Origin: Deltaproteobacteria bacterium | GTDB taxonomy: Bacteria > Desulfobacterota > SM23-61 | Direction: 5' to 3' | Assembly (NCBI GenBank): GCA_029857975.1 | Contig: JAOUFX010000087.1 | Coordinates: 1 to 8,488 of the forward strand | Length of the DNA: 8,488 bases | Shown: piece after piece, positions 2,711 through 8,488 of the stretch | Position numbering within the stretch: position 1 is the stretch's first letter | Layout of the letters: each line of letters starts with the position of its first letter | Position numbers and translations under genes: made by a program | The notes under the pieces: model-generated | What the model was told of the DNA's origin: nothing | The model's input: the letters and a program-made list of their open reading frames with translations, nothing else | Databases searched by the model: none

Positions 2711-4489
2711 TTACTTGATATAGTATTTCTGGGGGTCGAAAATCCTGAGGAGCCTCAGCTCGTCCAGCGTGGGGGGCGGAACCGCTGTGGGCTCTCTGGC
2801 CACTTTCAATTTCCAGCCACAGTTTTCTTTGATTTTTCTAACGATCCCCTCCGTCGATGAAACGTCCCGGTCGGAGAAGTATTTGGTCAGGGTAAACTCT
2901 TCATCGCCATCCAGCTTTTCAAATACGCCCATGGTGGAGACCAGTGTTTTTACTTTGGCACCGGGAGCAGTGATAAAGGGTACTTTTTCTAAAAAACGGT
3001 GCCGCGACTGCTGCATGATCACCATTGTTTCTCTGGCTCCACTGGCTACATCATTCGCACCGCCCGAGCCGGTGATATATAAATCGCCTGTAACCCAGTG
3101 AGAGTTAATATTGCCATACTTATCTATCTGCCCTCCACCCAGAACGCCGATGCATCGATTCGTGGCACCACAGGCAATGACTCCCAGAGTATCTAACGTT
3201 TCAGTCAACATCTTACAGGTGGCAAAATTGCCGAAGTTGAGAAGGAAGGGCTCCGCGGGGCGTGGGGAGTTTCCGTAATATCCCAGCTCCACCAGGAGTT
3301 CCACAATGTAGCCTTCTTTCTGCAGATGGTATTTAGCCACCCAGGCAGCCAGGTTAGCCGTTCCTGCCCCGGCCAGCATCGTTTTATGCTGGCTGCGAAG
3401 GATCCTGTCCTTAATCTCCCGAGCGGCGATGATCACCATCCTTTCAACATTATTGTATTCTTCTTTTTCGGATATCGTGCCTTCCAGGGCATCCAACTGG
3501 TATCGCCAGGCGTCCCGATCAGCATTGCCTTTGAGGGAAAGGATTCTATCCCGTCCCAGCTTGAACTTATAATCGTCAAAGGAGGGGCAGTCAAGCACCC
3601 ATTCCTGAATCCAGGCATCAAGGGACCTGGGGCTTTTACAGGTCTGATTGAACTGGGTCATGAATTCATAGTCCTCAGCGTAAGCTTCAAATTCCTCCAT
3701 CCCCTGGTTCCATACACCGCCGGGGTGCGCCCCCAAAGGTACGACCGATACGGAGTTCACCATATAGGCCGGCAGCTTTACCAGGTGAGAGTGCTGCCTG
3801 ATGAAATCGGTGCTGACCAGCTTTTCCACGGTAACCACCACTCCCCCGGTACTGGCTTTCGCACCCCAGAGGCTCTCACTATAAGGAGCCGTGAGGATGG
3901 TATTCCCCTCCCGATCGGCCGCCACCCCGTGGATGATGGAGATATCAGGGTTCAGCGCTTTCAGGAGACCAATCTTTTTCCCACTGCCAAACGGGTCGTC
4001 GATCACTCGGAAGGAGTCTTTGTTCTTTTCGGCCAGGGAGCTCCCGACGATCGATGTCGTAGACATAACGCCGACTCCAAGAGCTCCGGCCATGAGCATC
4101 AGTGGAAAGGTTAGGATCGACCAGTCTTCCAGCTCCACCTCTTTATTGGCATAGGCCTTTTGGCTTACAGGATTGGGACTGTACCACGGATAGACGTTTC
4201 CGGAGAAGGTGGTAATAACCTTCTTGATCAATCCCAAATGAAGCAGAATCGTGACGGTATCCCTGATCCCCCTTATAATCAGGGTGAAATCGGGCTTCCT
4301 TCCATAAAACTGCCGGGCAATCTCAAGGATGGCGGCACCGGAACAGCAATGGGTAACGCCAATGTGTATTTTGGCACCCGGCTTTATATTGCGCCCAATC
4401 GCTTCCTTGAGGCTTATAACTTTGTCCTCGCCCTCGTCTTCTTTTATTTTAAAGGTGCTTTCAAGCAGGTCGTTAAATCTGCCGGCCAT
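2711..4489 (-). CDS. Fused alpha-beta family I CoA-transferase, glutaconate CoA-transferase-like
   Basis: This 592-residue protein fuses two CoA-transferase folds normally encoded by two genes. The alpha half (about 25-310) shows the GctA-like segment DFTLIIRGIRD at 67-77, SGNVYPWYSPNP at 96-107 and HGVAADREGNT at 187-197. The beta half (about 345-592) shows AGAGTANLAA at 373-382, VELGYYG at 400-406 and GGGQIDKYGNINS at 451-463. In this family a Glu in the beta part forms the glutamyl-CoA thioester; by position E401 of VELG is the best candidate (inference). The enzyme moves CoA between acyl-CoA and a free acid in the cytoplasm; the actual acids cannot be read from sequence. The start is firm: AGGAGG lies 5 bases before the ATG. 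It diverges from the synthetase gene across a 304-bp control region. It could also act on 3-oxoacids or aromatic acids. Confidence 0.88.
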   Translation of the reverse strand: MAGRFNDLLESTFKIKEDEGEDKVISLKEAIGRNIKPGAKIHIGVTHCCSGAAILEIARQFYGRKPDFTLIIRGIRDTVTILLHLGLIKKVITTFSGNVYPWYSPNPVSQKAYANKEVELEDWSILTFPLMLMAGALGVGVMSTTSIVGSSLAEKNKDSFRVIDDPFGSGKKIGLLKALNPDISIIHGVAADREGNTILTAPYSESLWGAKASTGGVVVTVEKLVSTDFIRQHSHLVKLPAYMVNSVSVVPLGAHPGGVWNQGMEEFEAYAEDYEFMTQFNQTCKSPRSLDAWIQEWVLDCPSFDDYKFKLGRDRILSLKGNADRDAWRYQLDALEGTISEKEEYNNVERMVIIAAREIKDRILRSQHKTMLAGAGTANLAAWVAKYHLQKEGYIVELLVELGYYGNSPRPAEPFLLNFGNFATCKMLTETLDTLGVIACGATNRCIGVLGGGQIDKYGNINSHWVTGDLYITGSGGANDVASGARETMVIMQQSRHRFLEKVPFITAPGAKVKTLVSTMGVFEKLDGDEEFTLTKYFSDRDVSSTEGIVRKIKENCGWKLKVAREPTAVPPPTLDELRLLRIFDPQKYYIK

Positions 4490-4519: not shown

Positions 4520-4548
4520 AGCTTACAAGAGACAGCTATGCCTGTCAA
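4520..4548 (-). promoter_or_regulatory. Candidate promoter for the CoA-transferase gene
   Basis: On the minus strand a perfect TTGACA (4548-4543) is followed after 17 bases by TAAGCT (4525-4520), a weak -10 matching 3 of 6. The predicted start near 4513 leaves a leader of about 24 bases containing AGGAGG. The weak -10 suggests an activator or modest basal expression. Confidence 0.5.
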
Positions 4549-4561
4549 TCGACGCCAGCTC

Positions 4562-4653
4562 CTTGCCCACCTCTACTTTTGTGTTCTCGCCCGGACCCTT
4601 CAGCCCGGGCCGGGCAGCTCCTGCATAAAAAACAGAGGGAGGCCAAGGGCAAG
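4562..4653. mobile_element. Short MITE-like element, related to the 6417-6767 element
   Basis: This 92-bp segment begins CTTGCCC (4562-4568) and ends GGGCAAG (4647-4653), a 7-bp terminal inverted repeat. It shares a series of ordered blocks with the longer element at 6417-6767: CTTGCCC, ACTTTT, GCCCGGAC (4589-4596), the 13-mer CCGGGCCGGGCAG (4605-4617), CTGCA, an A-rich run and CCA(A)GGGCAAG. GCCCGG and CCGGGC pair across a short loop. No clean target duplication is visible at its edges; the best flanking match is partial. A 9-bp direct repeat TTCAAGCTT (4516-4524 and 4655-4663) brackets a slightly larger segment. It lies between the divergent promoters of the CoA-transferase and the synthetase. 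A decayed or internally deleted copy of the same family is the best reading. Confidence 0.5.
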
Positions 4654-4793: not shown

Positions 4794-6194
4794 ATGAAGG
4801 TTGAAAATCCGATGAAGCTTTTATTTCATCCCCGAACGATTGCTGTAATCGGCGCTTCGGATGACCTTTCCCGAATCGGCGGATTACCCCTCCGCTTTTT
4901 ACGCCAGCACGGGTATGGCGGGAAAATCTTTCCGGTGAATCCGCGATACCAAGAGATTGCCGGTCTGCCCTGTTTTCCTTCTCTGACCGATATTTCCGAG
5001 CCCGTAGATTTGGCCCTGATCGCCGTTCCTCGAAAATTTGTGCGGGAGGCCTTCCAGCAGTGCGCTGGCAAAAAGGTCCCTTATGCCATTCTATTCAGCG
5101 CGGGTTATGCGGAGATGGGTAGAGAGGGAAAGAAAGAGCAGGAGGAGTTGGGAAAATTTGTGCACGAAACAGGGATCCGGGTTGTTGGCCCGAACTGTAA
5201 CGGCATCATCAATACCCACGGGCATGTGGCCACCTCTTTTACAACCGGGCTGGAGATCGATTCCCTGGTCCCCGGGGCCGTCGGCCTCATCACCCAGAGC
5301 GGTGGGATCGGCAATTGCATCTTTACCCGGGGTATCGACCGTTCCATCGGCTTGAGTTATTTTATATCCTCCGGCAATGAGCTTGACTTGGAGGTCTCCG
5401 ACTTCCTGGAATACTTCATCCAGGACGAGGCGACGCGGTCCATCGCCCTCCTGCTGGAGGATTTGAAGAATCCCAGAAAATTTTCTTGCGTCGCTGACCA
5501 GGCCTTCCGCGCGGGCAAACCCATTGTGGTCCTCAAGGTGGGCCGTTCGGAAAAAGGGCGGGAGGCCGCGGCTTCCCATACCGGTGCCATGTCCGGAGCG
5601 GATACTTATTATGATGGACTCTTCCGGCAGAAAGGCATCAGCAGGGTTTTTGATATTGATGATTTAATTGAAGTATCCCACCTTTTCTCCTGCTATAAAC
5701 CTCCGGCAGGCAACCGTATCGCCATCCTTACGTCCTCCGGCGGAAGCGGAGCCTTAATGGCCGACTTAGCCTCAGATCACCAGCTTCGTCTTCCTCATCC
5801 GTCGGCCCGCGCCCGGGATCAACTGCACGATGTAATCCCGGCGGTGGCAGAAATCGCCAACCCCATGGACATTACAACCCAGTTCATGAACAATCCGGAT
5901 GTCATTGCCCGCTACCTCCGGGTTTTTGCCGAGGATGAGAACTTTGACGTGTTGATCATCACCTTCACGACTTCCACACCCGACACAACCTTGCGTCTGG
6001 CCGAGAAGATCGCCGCCACCGCCCCCTCTCTGCCTAAACCCTTAGTGGTCTGCTGGCCCGTTGGCAATATGGCCCGCCCGGCCTTCCATTGCCTGGAAAG
6101 AGCCGGCATCCCTCTTTTTTTCCATCCCTCTCGTTGCTTGTCGGCTGTGGGCCATTTCACCCGGTACGCCATACACCAGAAAACGCACGTTTAA
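4794..6194 (+). CDS. Acyl-CoA synthetase (NDP-forming), alpha-type subunit
   Basis: This 466-residue protein has the layout of the alpha subunit of ADP-forming acetyl/acyl-CoA synthetase. It has an N-terminal CoA-binding Rossmann domain (about 7-105, starting FHPRTIAVIGASDD), a middle domain with VGPNCNG (131-137) and TQSGGIG (167-173), and a C-terminal ligase-CoA domain (about 305-460, TSSGGSGAL). The phosphorylated His of the family is H262 in ASHTGAMSG; E222 in LLLEDLK matches the Glu that contacts it. The length fits archaeal-type stand-alone alpha subunits of about 460 residues. The enzyme interconverts acyl-CoA + ADP + Pi with acid + CoA + ATP but needs an ATP-grasp beta subunit, which is absent here and nearby. 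The start is ambiguous: neither the ATG at 4794 nor the one at 4812 has a strong ribosome site, and 4812 gives MKLLFHPRTIAV, closer to the usual family start. Confidence 0.88.
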   Translation: MKVENPMKLLFHPRTIAVIGASDDLSRIGGLPLRFLRQHGYGGKIFPVNPRYQEIAGLPCFPSLTDISEPVDLALIAVPRKFVREAFQQCAGKKVPYAILFSAGYAEMGREGKKEQEELGKFVHETGIRVVGPNCNGIINTHGHVATSFTTGLEIDSLVPGAVGLITQSGGIGNCIFTRGIDRSIGLSYFISSGNELDLEVSDFLEYFIQDEATRSIALLLEDLKNPRKFSCVADQAFRAGKPIVVLKVGRSEKGREAAASHTGAMSGADTYYDGLFRQKGISRVFDIDDLIEVSHLFSCYKPPAGNRIAILTSSGGSGALMADLASDHQLRLPHPSARARDQLHDVIPAVAEIANPMDITTQFMNNPDVIARYLRVFAEDENFDVLIITFTTSTPDTTLRLAEKIAATAPSLPKPLVVCWPVGNMARPAFHCLERAGIPLFFHPSRCLSAVGHFTRYAIHQKTHV

Positions 6195-6416
6195 TCGTAT
6201 GGACCAAGGAAAGGCAAGAGGAGTCATCTCTTCCTGAGTGCAGGAACTCTGTAACATTTTAGCTCTTTGAAAAAATTGGCTAAACTCCAACGCCCCATGC
6301 AAAAGTTTGAAAATTTCGATATGACTATGATTTGACGGAAAAATTGGCATTTTTCACTTTTCAATGAAATTTAGCGTGTCTTTTCAAAACGCTAAATTGA
6401 TATAGAACTCTTAATC
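6195..6416. other. AT-rich non-coding stretch with two related hairpins
   Basis: No gene is seen here. TTCCTG-AGTG-CAGGAA (6231-6246) is a 6-bp stem with a tetraloop soon after the synthetase stop, but no T-run follows, so it is at best a weak 3' structure. TTTAGC (6258-6263) can pair with GCTAAA (6279-6284). The same arms recur in a stronger hairpin at 6368-6398. AAAAATTGGC is repeated directly at 6271-6280 and 6339-6348. The last 10 bases (6407-6416) are the left copy of the direct repeat flanking the mobile element. Confidence 0.55.
6368..6398. repeat. 10-bp stem hairpin
   Basis: AATTTAGCGT (6368-6377) and ACGCTAAATT (6389-6398) are perfect inverted copies around an 11-nt loop. No T-tract follows on the plus strand, but the stem could protect the 3' end of the synthetase transcript or be a protein-binding dyad. 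Confidence 0.55.
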
Positions 6417-6464
6417 CTTGCCCCCACTTTTCAATGGATCGATGAATTTAATTTGATTAACGGA

Positions 6465-6516
6465 GCCCGGACGGGAGGGTGATGAAAAGGGGAGAGATTC
6501 ACCCTCCCGTCCGGGC
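6465..6516. repeat. Perfect 18-bp stem hairpin inside the mobile element
   Basis: The arms 6465-6482 and 6499-6516 are exact inverted complements (beginning GCCCGGACGG and ending CCGTCCGGGC) around a 16-nt purine-rich loop. There is no T-run after it on either strand, so it is not an ordinary terminator. The right arm can alternatively pair with 6530-6540. Confidence 0.85.
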
Positions 6517-6532
6517 CGGGCAGTCTCTTCCC

Positions 6533-6719
6533 GGACCCGGCGGGGAGATGCTGCGCTGGGCCAAAAGGCGGTGGTTCTTCCATGACTTGGAGCTTTACTT
6601 CCACCGCTGTAGCAAAGATATATGTTGTTTGTGCTCTCTTTTTGCGGAGGCAAAGTGAGGGGTGCCGAAAGGTTTGATCCCACCGTTTGGCCGGCGCGCA
6701 GCACCTCCCCGCCGGGTCC
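6533..6719. repeat. Long imperfect inverted repeat (24-bp arms) inside the mobile element
   Basis: The arms 6533-6556 and 6696-6719 pair over 24 positions with a single mismatch (A6548 against C6704). Further inward, GGCCAAA followed by CGGTGG (6559-6574) pairs with CCACCG and TTTGGCC (6680-6692) with a small bulge, extending the stem. A small hairpin TTTGC-GGAG-GCAAA (6641-6654) lies in the apical part. The whole would fold into a rod of about 190 nt in RNA or single-stranded DNA. Confidence 0.8.
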
Positions 6720-6780
6720 TGATAATTCTTCTGCAATCATGAGAGAAAATAAAAACCAGGGGGCAAGACTCTTAATCCTG

Positions 6781-6809
6781 TTGACAGGCTATGCCAAATT
6801 TAATACATT
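6781..6809 (+). promoter_or_regulatory. Sigma-70-type promoter for the 103-residue protein gene
   Basis: TTGACA (6781-6786) is followed after exactly 17 bases by TACATT (6804-6809), a perfect -35 and a 4/6 -10. Transcription would start near 6816, giving a leader of about 59 bases. It begins 3 bases past the right copy of the direct repeat flanking the mobile element, so the core promoter is intact but everything upstream of it has been displaced. Confidence 0.6.
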
Positions 6810-6874
6810 CTTATTGCCTTGCAACGAGAAACTCTGCCGGGCGAAGAAATGCTTTCAATGGATGTGGAGGAATT

Positions 6875-7186
6875 ATGAGAATCAAAGTACGGGACGAAAA
6901 GATCATCAAGGCCATTAAAAAACTGGAGGGAATTGATATTATTCTTAAGAATGTAGAAGATGCCAAAAACGCCATGCGTCTCATCCTCCGCAAGACGGAA
7001 ATATCCCGCAGTAAAGAATACGAAGGCCTTAAAGACATTACCATTACCCAGGTCTTCGAACATGCCACCAGCGCCATGGAATATTATTCTTTTTACGAAG
7101 TCGAATTCATCCTTAACGACGACCGTTTTATGGAAATGGAGATCGCTTTGATTAAGGAACTCCAGACTATGTTTGAAAAATTATAG
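6875..7186 (+). CDS. Uncharacterised small charged protein, 103 residues
   Basis: I do not recognise this protein. The start at 6875 is chosen because GGAGG lies 4 bases upstream; the same frame is open further back to 6791, but that part overlaps the promoter and has no ribosome site. The product begins MRIKVRDEKIIKAIKKLEG and is rich in Lys, Glu, Ile and Met, with no Cys or Trp. It looks largely helical. A middle stretch (about 52-75) contains a His and Ser/Tyr pairs (QVFEHATSAMEYYSFYEVEF), and the C-terminal helix (about 78-103) is acidic and could form a coiled coil. There is no signal peptide or membrane segment. It stands alone between the mobile element and the cyclase-family gene, with its own promoter. 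The gap that follows begins with a perfect 12-bp palindrome, ATCATATATGAT (7202-7213). Confidence 0.75.
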   Translation: MRIKVRDEKIIKAIKKLEGIDIILKNVEDAKNAMRLILRKTEISRSKEYEGLKDITITQVFEHATSAMEYYSFYEVEFILNDDRFMEMEIALIKELQTMFEKL

Positions 7187-7333
7187 CTGGGGCTGGGAAG
7201 AATCATATATGATGCTATGGTTAGAATCATCCCATCATCGAGGAAAAAAATCAATCCGGCCTTTACCTTGACAAGCCAGAAGCAGGTTCGACAACTCATC
7301 ATTGTCAATCATTTTATCAGGGAAGAGAAAAAA

Positions 7334-7350
7334 TAGTGCCAGTGGCACTA
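7334..7350. promoter_or_regulatory. Operator-like 17-bp palindrome upstream of the cyclase-family gene
   Basis: TAGTGCCA (7334-7341) and TGGCACTA (7343-7350) are perfect inverted copies around a single G. It ends 36 bases before the chosen ATG, in the expected position for a repressor site in the leader. The symmetry and size suit a dimeric regulator of the GntR, TetR or LacI type (inference). A TTGACA at 7268-7273 lies upstream, but no good -10 follows at normal spacing. Confidence 0.5.
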
Positions 7351-7386
7351 AACACTCCATCTGCCACTTCTTTACGGGAGGTTTTC

Positions 7387-8184
7387 ATGCTGGCCAGAGC
7401 GATGAAAGAATTGATCGTCAGGGGCAATATTTATGATTTAGGGCAGCCCTACTTCCCGGGCATGCCCCACCACCCCAACCATCCTCCGTTCGCTTTTTCT
7501 CTGACTAAAAAGCACGGGGATGTCATGTACCCGAATCAGGTCAGTTCGGCCAATGACCTCTTTGCCACCGGCGGCCATACCGGAACCCATCTCGACTCCC
7601 TCGGGCACATATCCAAGAAGGGTAAACTTTTTGGAAACGTGGATGCTTCCAAGGTTCAAAGTTATAGCAGGGGGTTGAAAAGGGGAGGAATCGATGTCAC
7701 CCCGCCGGTTATACGAAGGGGAATTCTGCTGGATGTGGCCAGGGCCCTGGGGAAAAATGTTCTCTCCCCTGCCTTTCCTATCGGCCCCAAAGAATTGGAA
7801 AAGACAGCGGCCAAAGAAGGCGTCACTTTTAAAGCCGGAGATGTTGTGCTCATCCGTACCGGGTGGGCAAAGTACTGGGGAGACCCCAAGAGATTCGTGG
7901 CCAACGAGAAAGGTGCGCCAGGGGTAAATCTGGAAGGAGCAAAGTGGCTGGTCCGCTATAAGATGGCCTTCACCGGCTCAGACACCACGGCTTACGAAAA
8001 GACGCCAGCCCATGACCTGCCGGTGCACGTTTTCCTTCTAAATCAGAGGGGAATCCAGCTCATGGAAATGCTCAACTTGGAGGAGATTGCCCGGGATAGA
8101 GTTTATGAGTTCCTGTTTGTGGCCTTGCCGCTTAGAATCATGGGTGGAACTGCCTCCCCCGTCCGCCCGGTGGCGATTTGTTAA
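7387..8184 (+). CDS. Cyclase-family metal-dependent hydrolase, kynurenine formamidase-like
   Basis: The ATG at 7387 (265 residues) follows GGGAGG by 5 bases. The same frame is open from a GTG at 7336, but that one has no ribosome site and lies within the palindrome. The protein has the family signature HTGTHLDSLGH, giving metal ligands H64, H68 and D70, with H74 following. It also has the usual ending PLRIMGGTASPVRPVAI. A late stretch, VHVFLLNQRGIQLMEMLNLEEIA, also fits the family. Members of this cyclase/KynB-like family hydrolyse amide or ester bonds in formylkynurenine, isatin or cyclic compounds, or act in polyketide ring closure; the substrate cannot be told from sequence. It is cytoplasmic, with no signal peptide. 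No tryptophan-catabolic genes are near, so kynurenine use is not supported. A palindromic operator-like site upstream suggests substrate-responsive control. Confidence 0.88.
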   Translation: MLARAMKELIVRGNIYDLGQPYFPGMPHHPNHPPFAFSLTKKHGDVMYPNQVSSANDLFATGGHTGTHLDSLGHISKKGKLFGNVDASKVQSYSRGLKRGGIDVTPPVIRRGILLDVARALGKNVLSPAFPIGPKELEKTAAKEGVTFKAGDVVLIRTGWAKYWGDPKRFVANEKGAPGVNLEGAKWLVRYKMAFTGSDTTAYEKTPAHDLPVHVFLLNQRGIQLMEMLNLEEIARDRVYEFLFVALPLRIMGGTASPVRPVAIC

Positions 8185-8248
8185 AAGGCGTAAGGCGAAA
8201 AAATAGGCCAGAGGCGGCAATAGGCAATAGGGTTTAAGGGAAAAAAGC

Positions 8249-8488
8249 ATGAGTAATCTGTTCGCCGTCTGCATACCAGGGCTCGAGGATTTTACGGCCC
8301 AAGAACTTGAACAACTGGGCCTGGGAGTCAAACGTACCCTTTCTCCATGGGTAGATTCTCCTCCGGGGCGAAAACCGGATGATACGGGGGGTGGCGTAGA
8401 ATTTCGCGGGTCGCTGCCCGATATTTACCGGGTCAACCTGCACCTGCGCACGGGGAGTCGGGTGCTGGTTCGACTGGGCACGTTTTAC
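8249..8488 (+). CDS. rlmL: RlmL-type 23S rRNA guanine-N2 methyltransferase, N-terminal fragment
   Basis: The first 80 codons are present and the frame runs off the window end. The ATG at 8249 has AAGGG 8 bases upstream. The start MSNLFAVCIPGLEDFTAQEL, followed by GVEFRGSLPDIYRVNLHLRTGSR, matches the N-terminal ferredoxin-like/THUMP region of RlmL (YcbY), whose E. coli member starts in the same style with GLE, GGV-F-G and SR blocks. RlmL makes N2-methylguanosine in 23S rRNA using S-adenosylmethionine. The methyltransferase domain is outside the window, so RlmL cannot be separated from the wider THUMP-methyltransferase group. An insertion rich in Pro, Gly and Asp at about residues 33-48 is longer than in E. 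coli. The 64-bp gap before it holds GGCAATA and AAGGCG short direct repeats. Confidence 0.82.
   Translation, partial: MSNLFAVCIPGLEDFTAQELEQLGLGVKRTLSPWVDSPPGRKPDDTGGGVEFRGSLPDIYRVNLHLRTGSRVLVRLGTFY

Follow-up and report, generated by a model that had tools for sequence, protein, structure and literature searches.

We propose that a 351-bp segment at positions 6417–6767 of the window (the whole stretch of 8,488 nucleotides analyzed here) is a miniature transposon, or MITE, with ends of the form CTTGCCCNCCTTCACTTTT, that it is moved in trans by a DDE transposase of the IS4/Tn5 type, and that its integration is anchored on sigma70-type promoters; we put the probability of this reading at about 0.8. 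The evidence consists of the ends and target duplications of the family, one empty site that carries its promoter, two elements at one junction, a 3-bp register to the −35 box, and an excess of −10-like hexamers. The preliminary description of this DNA recognized an insertion of a type it could not name; that type is a family that inserts at a constant distance from promoter −35 boxes.

A multi-copy miniature element and its empty site

The window element is bounded by perfect 9-bp inverted repeats, CTTGCCCCC at 6417–6425 (forward strand) and GGGGGCAAG at 6759–6767 (reverse strand), each altered within the first nine bases relative to the 19-bp consensus end of the family, CTTGCCCNCCTTCACTTTT. 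The 10-bp target duplication ACTCTTAATC abuts both ends (6407–6416 and 6768–6777), as had been described. The exact direct repeat around the element is 12 bp long (ACTCTTAATCCT), not 10, because the CT with which the element begins is found again directly after the right copy; the boundary is placed at 6417 because the family-wide end CTTGCC fixes it there. Both strands fold far more strongly than dinucleotide shuffles (RNA folding z −8.7 and −9.5 for the two strands; DNA z −8.1 for the forward strand), which agrees with the strong secondary structure noticed earlier. This strength is owed mainly to a hairpin at 6465–6516, with an 18-bp perfect stem (6465–6482/6499–6516) and a 16-nt loop (DNA z −7.6), and to a 24-bp stem with one mismatch (6533–6556/6696–6719) that closes an internal module (6533–6719) recurring in other copies. 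Mechanically called open reading frames of at most 109 aa cross the body; a Pfam scan of the three longest gave none at cut-off, and an Rfam scan of the window gave no family at gathering score.

Copies of the segment are numerous and dispersed. BLAST against the nearest genome, G001, returned 25 whole or partial matches, and relatives of the window element there are 80–83% identical over most of its length; matches occur in 6 of 59 relatives, including all four genomes of the genus. Family ends with at most one mismatch occur 97 times in forward and 92 times in reverse orientation (189 in all) in the eight genomes of the class, which we take to be SM23-61 in GTDB, against none for the reversed pattern. 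The family was found in all eight of these genomes and in a few other deltaproteobacterial genomes, and its hosts are uncultured bacteria of lakes, sediments, and groundwater. An exact end scan of 84,980 species, one genome each, gave 85 stretches, compared with about 7.5 expected by chance on our own estimate: 63 in the class, six in other Deltaproteobacteria or Syntrophaceae-labelled genomes, and 16 in scattered taxa. Two further stretches with a family end were found in viral contigs. Interiors are interchangeable, lengths differ greatly, both orientations occur, and the ends are what all copies share. The same ends are accompanied by different duplications of 8–11 bp, within the range of 8–12 bp that had been predicted. 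Being short and non-coding, with terminal inverted repeats, a target duplication, an empty site, and many dispersed copies, the element has the features of a MITE, and the original view of it as a non-autonomous insertion with a perfect target duplication is supported.

Individual copies vary widely in structure. The smallest (L193, 4931–4986) is 56 bp long, roughly two ends back to back, and lies 13 bp from GTCAA with a duplication in which 9 of 10 bases match; since it is little more than two ends and fits the target rule described below, the ends alone may suffice for targeting. A 606-bp copy (L094/L145, G003 C144 5683–6288) looks like a 298-bp copy into which other repeats were inserted, and it has GTCAA at offset 13 on both sides. 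In three copies (L097 and L098 in G003, L047 in G004) the ends seem extended outward, reading CTTTTAATGGGTGCCC or similar; L097 has GTCAA 13 bp outside the longer end, and these copies could represent a sister subfamily.

An empty site is present in the nearest genome. At locus L139 of G001, the ortholog of the 103-aa gene downstream of the window element (94% identical protein) is preceded by GGAACTCTTAATCCTGTTGACAGGCTATGCCAAATTTAATACATTC, with a single copy of the duplication and neither the element nor a neighboring insert of about 155 bp; the predicted empty-site sequence, GGAACTCTTAATCCTGTTGACAGGC, is there. This site carries the −35 box, so a promoter exists there without insertion. The segment is thus not a single-copy, conserved stretch, and an aligned empty site exists. 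The earlier description needs one correction, in that the left flank in the window is itself interrupted by the ~155-bp insert. When the joined flanks of 38 copies were searched in the available loci, no empty site other than L139 was found.

The same junction appears to have been used twice. A contig of genome G002 (L035) reads CTCTTAATC followed directly by CTTGCCC, which is the window junction with the element the opposite way round, and breaks off within the element. The L035 copy matches another G002 copy (L031) at 168 of 170 positions, compared with 149 of 166 for the window copy, and on these sequence similarities we interpret it as a separate insertion event that struck the identical base pair; an inversion in place is the less likely alternative.

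The ~155-bp insert (approximately 6251–6405) lies just upstream of the element, is flanked by GAACTCT, and is absent from both L139 and L035. It has the ends TGTAACATTTTAGC and GCTAAATTGATATA, one of which recurs at six other loci (L216, L176, L197, L223, L222, and L243) and in part at L218, marking another MITE-like family. Identity between the window and G001 steps from 76.7% on the left (4853–6250) to 96.3% on the right (6768–8488), although the 150 bases immediately left of the site also resemble G001 closely; the step points to a boundary of recombination or transfer within the CoA-ligase gene.

The strong folding of both strands and the constant position relative to promoters would also suit a promoter-associated regulatory element or structured RNA that is not mobile. 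We regard this as hardly tenable given the target duplications, the empty ortholog, the occurrence of both orientations, and interiors that are interchangeable down to 56 bp, and there is no Rfam match. A mobile MITE may nonetheless have a regulatory side effect on the promoter beside which it lies.

Insertions are registered on the −35 box

In the window, the right copy of the duplication is followed by a 3-bp gap, CTG (6778–6780, forward strand), and then by the −35 box TTGACA (6781–6786, forward strand), which stands 13 bp outside the element. With the −10-like hexamer TACATT (6804–6809, forward strand) at 17-bp spacing, this box makes up the promoter that serves the 103-aa protein gene (6875–7186, forward strand), whose product has no Pfam family. 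A probable second copy of the family, degenerate and 92 bp long, lies at 4562–4653; its left end has 2 mismatches and no target duplication was found around it. Another TTGACA (4543–4548, reverse strand) stands 13 bp outside this copy, ahead of a CoA-transferase gene (2711–4489).

The same arrangement recurs across the family. In 36 of 39 non-redundant copies, TTGAC (at least 4 of 5 letters) is found 13 bp beyond an end, on the left in 17, on the right in 18, and on both sides in 1. These copies were selected with no target criterion, by ends with at most 5 mismatches (at most 3 in the better end) and duplications with at most 3 mismatches in 10, so that end pairs with a duplication below 7 of 10 were left out. 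Recounted without the duplication filter, an exact GTCAA at offset 12–14 is present in 49 of 61 end pairs, in two of them at both ends; among the 12 that lack it, some pairings are spurious, and L208, L186, and L112 are real deviations. Counted by single ends, GTCAA lies at offsets 12, 13, and 14 in 12, 54, and 3 of 150 distinct class ends with at most 2 mismatches, and at each other offset from 0 to 35 in at most 3, which is near the possible maximum because one of the two ends faces the promoter. This count excludes L263–L268, L271–L274, L029, L030, and L034 and keeps the 16 loci from scattered taxa apart; GTCAA was found at offset 12–14 in none of the 15 ends from those taxa. Outside the class, the rule holds for four copies (L233, L193, L181, and L230) and, across an assembly gap, for L220, but fails for L186.

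Genome-wide, the pattern GTCAA-N13-CTTGCC occurs 151 times in the eight class genomes versus 17 times for the reversed pattern, which is a poor null because genomes outside the class also exceed it. Such genomes include G136 (26 versus 2), G372 (21 versus 0), G221 (21 versus 1), and G114 (18 versus 0), where the excess may reflect composition or further elements.

Copies with an exact duplication define the register to the base pair. Their duplications range from 8 to 11 bp and are 10 bp long in 19 of 25, and duplication length and TTGAC offset change together: 8 with 11 (one copy), 9 with 12 (four), 10 with 13 (18), and 11 with 14 (one). The length of the gap between duplication and −35 box is therefore constant at 3 bp in 24 of 25 copies, and since the duplication varies while the gap does not, the promoter-side cut is fixed 3 bp from TTGAC and it is the distal cut that varies. 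The remaining copy, L208, combines TTGAT at gap 3 on one flank with TTGAC at gap 0 on the opposite flank. Within the duplication, counting from the element’s promoter-side end, position 7 shows the strongest preference, for A or T.

This register bears on the question of whether the pattern could result from selection rather than targeting. Elements near genes are under selection and intergenic copies survive better, and insertion might accordingly be random, with only those copies retained that lie just upstream of promoters, where they are harmless or help expression. We judge this very improbable, because survival would leave unexplained both a register of single base pairs, in which 24 of 25 copies keep a 3-bp gap although the duplication runs from 8 to 11 bp, and the repeated use of one junction in the window and L035.

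Are the targets promoters or merely the word TTGAC? Taking a −10-like hexamer as one with at least 4 of the 6 letters of TATAAT, we found one at 17-bp spacing on 20 of 37 promoter sides versus 1 of 37 distal sides. In a larger set, obtained by collapsing near-identical flanks (157 ends reduced to 143) and excluding L263–L268, L271–L274, L029, L030, L034, L275–L305, and the 16 scattered-taxa loci, the hexamer was found at 17 bp at 32 of 64 promoter-side ends versus 7 of 79 other ends, and at a spacing of 16–18 bp at 52 of 64 versus 18 of 79. A good hexamer at exactly 17 bp is thus absent from half of the promoter-side ends. Control TTGAC sites without an element, counted after removal of 22 loci outside the class and of sites preceded by an element-like end at about 13 bp, have the hexamer at 17 bp in 34 of 210 intergenic and 28 of 559 coding cases. 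The excess over intergenic TTGAC (Fisher p = 2.6 × 10−6 for the 37 sides and 1.5 × 10−7 for the 64 ends) argues that promoters are hit, and not merely the word TTGAC. By crude ORF calls, the first downstream ORF lies on the promoter’s strand in 25 of 37 cases and on the other strand in 8, with none in 4.

A transposase that reads the word TTGAC and a spacing, promoter function and RNA polymerase playing no part and promoters being hit simply as intergenic locations of that word, is a serious possibility that we hold at somewhat less than even odds. Across the 37 promoter sides the letters TTGA never vary and C rarely does, in part because these sides were chosen for at least 4 of 5 letters, whereas conservation of the −10 region is only moderate; PMC2266710 describes, for some IS4-family members, conserved arms of the target that lie outside the duplication. 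It is against this possibility that the −10 excess over other intergenic TTGAC sites weighs.

Under promoter-anchored integration, the transposase would mobilize the element by its ends, with one strand joined exactly 3 bp ahead of TTGAC in the −35 box and the other joined 8–11 bp (usually 10) further upstream. This would place the element near −49, within the UP-element region and in either orientation; the −35 and −10 boxes would stay intact, and upstream control DNA would be displaced by the length of the element. We infer that the mobilizing complex recognizes as its target the −35 box, or RNA polymerase bound there: TTGAC might be read by the transposase itself, or the transposase, with or without the accessory protein OrfA described below, might meet RNA polymerase at the promoter. 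The −10 excess favors the meeting with polymerase and the near-invariance of TTGAC favors direct reading, and the two are compatible if elements land at −35 boxes to which sigma binds strongly.

A candidate mobilizer

Among the loci examined, only one longer stretch with genes is bounded by family ends. This locus (L144, G003 C41 37115–38217) is a decayed 1.1-kb copy in which ends with 0 and 2 mismatches surround orfA, encoding 107 aa, and half of orfB, the stop of orfA overlapping the GTG of the broken orfB. The orfB remnant is 94% identical to protein P0122 over 108 residues before a frameshift with two stops; similarity is lost soon after the second catalytic D, and the E region is missing from the remnant. 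The flanks of L144 itself show no duplication and no TTGAC at the expected place. The search that had been suggested for a full insertion sequence (IS) with CTTGCCC ends thus led to one decayed copy with family ends, but to no intact IS with such ends in the genomes searched.

Relatives of the two proteins are common in the protein collection (960 for OrfA and 554 for OrfB at E 0.001), and many of the best 120 of each lie on contigs of 1–3 kb. In relatives OrfB is a single 404-aa ORF, and most of the best 120 of 554 are about 400 aa long. The residues D123, D186, and E289 and the set Y282, R285, E289, and K296 are invariant in 50 OrfB relatives, which show the spacings D(60–110)D(100–150)E and Y(2)R(3)E(6)K. 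The six best Foldseek matches of an OrfB model (mean pLDDT 68) are the Tn5 transposase or its inhibitor, and the best NCBIfam IS4 model, NF033591, scores 108–120 bits, below its cut-off of 152; a sequence search of OrfB against solved structures gave no match. On the strength of the shared ends, the orfA–orfB IS of which L144 is a remnant is likely the mobilizer of the family.

Within 395 genomes of the phylum, an OrfA profile matched in five, closely only in G003, and P0122 gave a single match, the G003 remnant itself. The OrfB relative P0231 was found neither in the five genomes reached through the loci, four of which carry family ends outside the class, nor in 23 genomes of the class of G399. 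Searched against plasmids, P0231 found only distant IS4-like transposases, the best named being ISTth2 (32% over 57% of the query), and OrfA had no match in plasmids or viral contigs.

OrfA is modeled as a winged helix (mean pLDDT 73.8), to which generic winged helices fit. The best named match of its relatives is the delta subunit of RNA polymerase (HARE-HTH), with all scores below curated cut-offs: E 0.0003–0.0028 and 18.5–21.6 bits against PF05066 (cut-off 25.9), and E 0.0011 and 19.1 bits for P0054 against TIGR04567 (cut-off 42). A chain of a S. aureus RNA polymerase complex (8x6g_E, E 0.028) ranked fourth in Foldseek among generic winged helices; a second fold search gave generic winged helices with no delta entry among the best 50 matches listed, and a sequence search against solved structures gave an unrelated chain as best match (E 0.065). 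A distantly delta-like OrfA might tether the transposase to RNA polymerase and thereby let the transcription machinery set the site at about −49, a speculative extension that we consider rather unlikely. In G272, G138, and G089 (L263, L265, and L266), OrfA relatives adjoin other transposase-like ORFs, as read by eye, which points to a recurring accessory protein of ISs. One distant OrfA-bearing IS (L273, G089) differs in its ends, carries a duplication of 9 bp, and lacks TTGAC at the expected position. With relatives beside other transposases and L273 lacking promoter targeting, OrfA alone need not be the cause of the target rule.

Matches to the Y1 transposase family Y1_Tnp are also common in the class genomes, with 32 in G003 versus 3–13 in the seven others, and one broken copy (L101) has a RAYT-like reading next to it. 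We nevertheless reject the idea of a REPIN-like element moved by a RAYT, to which we assign almost no probability: we know of no Y1 enzymes that make ~10-bp duplications, no family end with fewer than 3 mismatches occurs in 30 Y1_Tnp loci (L146–L175), and apart from a nested repeat in L165 these loci contain no match to any of six element bodies. The RAYT-like reading at L101/L143 is a fragment beside a broken copy.

Relation to known systems

Insertion measured from the −35 box avoids genes and allows many copies, as the 189 ends in eight genomes attest, and the element slips between promoters and their upstream control DNA. With insertion anchored on promoters, a simple system would become available in which to test whether the bacterial transcription machinery guides target choice, and the positions of elements would flag promoters in uncultured bacteria; placing DNA immediately upstream of promoters is a possible technical use.

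What is known here is the kind of element, a MITE of an IS4/Tn5-type IS; what is new is the target rule, together with ends that fit no named subgroup. Hallmarks of the IS4 family, according to PMC2266710, are the DDE spacing and the YREK motif, and OrfB relatives share with Tn5/IS50, IS10, and IS231 this spacing, the complete YREK, and a Tn5-like fold; the MITE’s duplication of 8–11 bp, about one helix turn, is a further likeness. The 5′-CT of the ends is found in IS10, IS50-type, and ISPepr1 elements, but CTTGCCC fits no end signature beyond CT among the seven named subgroups in Table 1 of that source, and IS10, which shares only this minimal CT, makes a 9-bp duplication (PMC2266710). The family also differs from IS4 elements in the second gene, orfA, that precedes and overlaps orfB, in the fixed distance of the target from a −35 box, and in OrfB scores below the NCBIfam IS4 cut-offs, which make the protein IS4-like without filing it under those models. 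Members with specific target arms are known, and a −35-like target arm may exist among the IS4 elements of PMC2266710. A search of openly accessible literature found no report of −35-anchored insertion, which appears unusual for bacterial transposons.

By description, the family resembles bacterial MITEs and MICs such as MIC231 of IS231 and MITEAba12, which are short, have inverted ends and target duplications, lack a transposase, and occur in many copies; it is set apart from them, again by description, by its promoter-anchored target. Group IIC introns insert behind terminators and so likewise take a transcription signal as target, but their mobility is RNA-based and the signal is a different one. 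The closest parallel in working, with no relation implied, is with the yeast elements Ty3 and Ty1, which integrate at a set distance from Pol III promoters but are retroelements that use eukaryotic factors; if OrfA does dock the transposase on RNA polymerase, the family would be a bacterial counterpart of Ty3’s use of the Pol III machinery.
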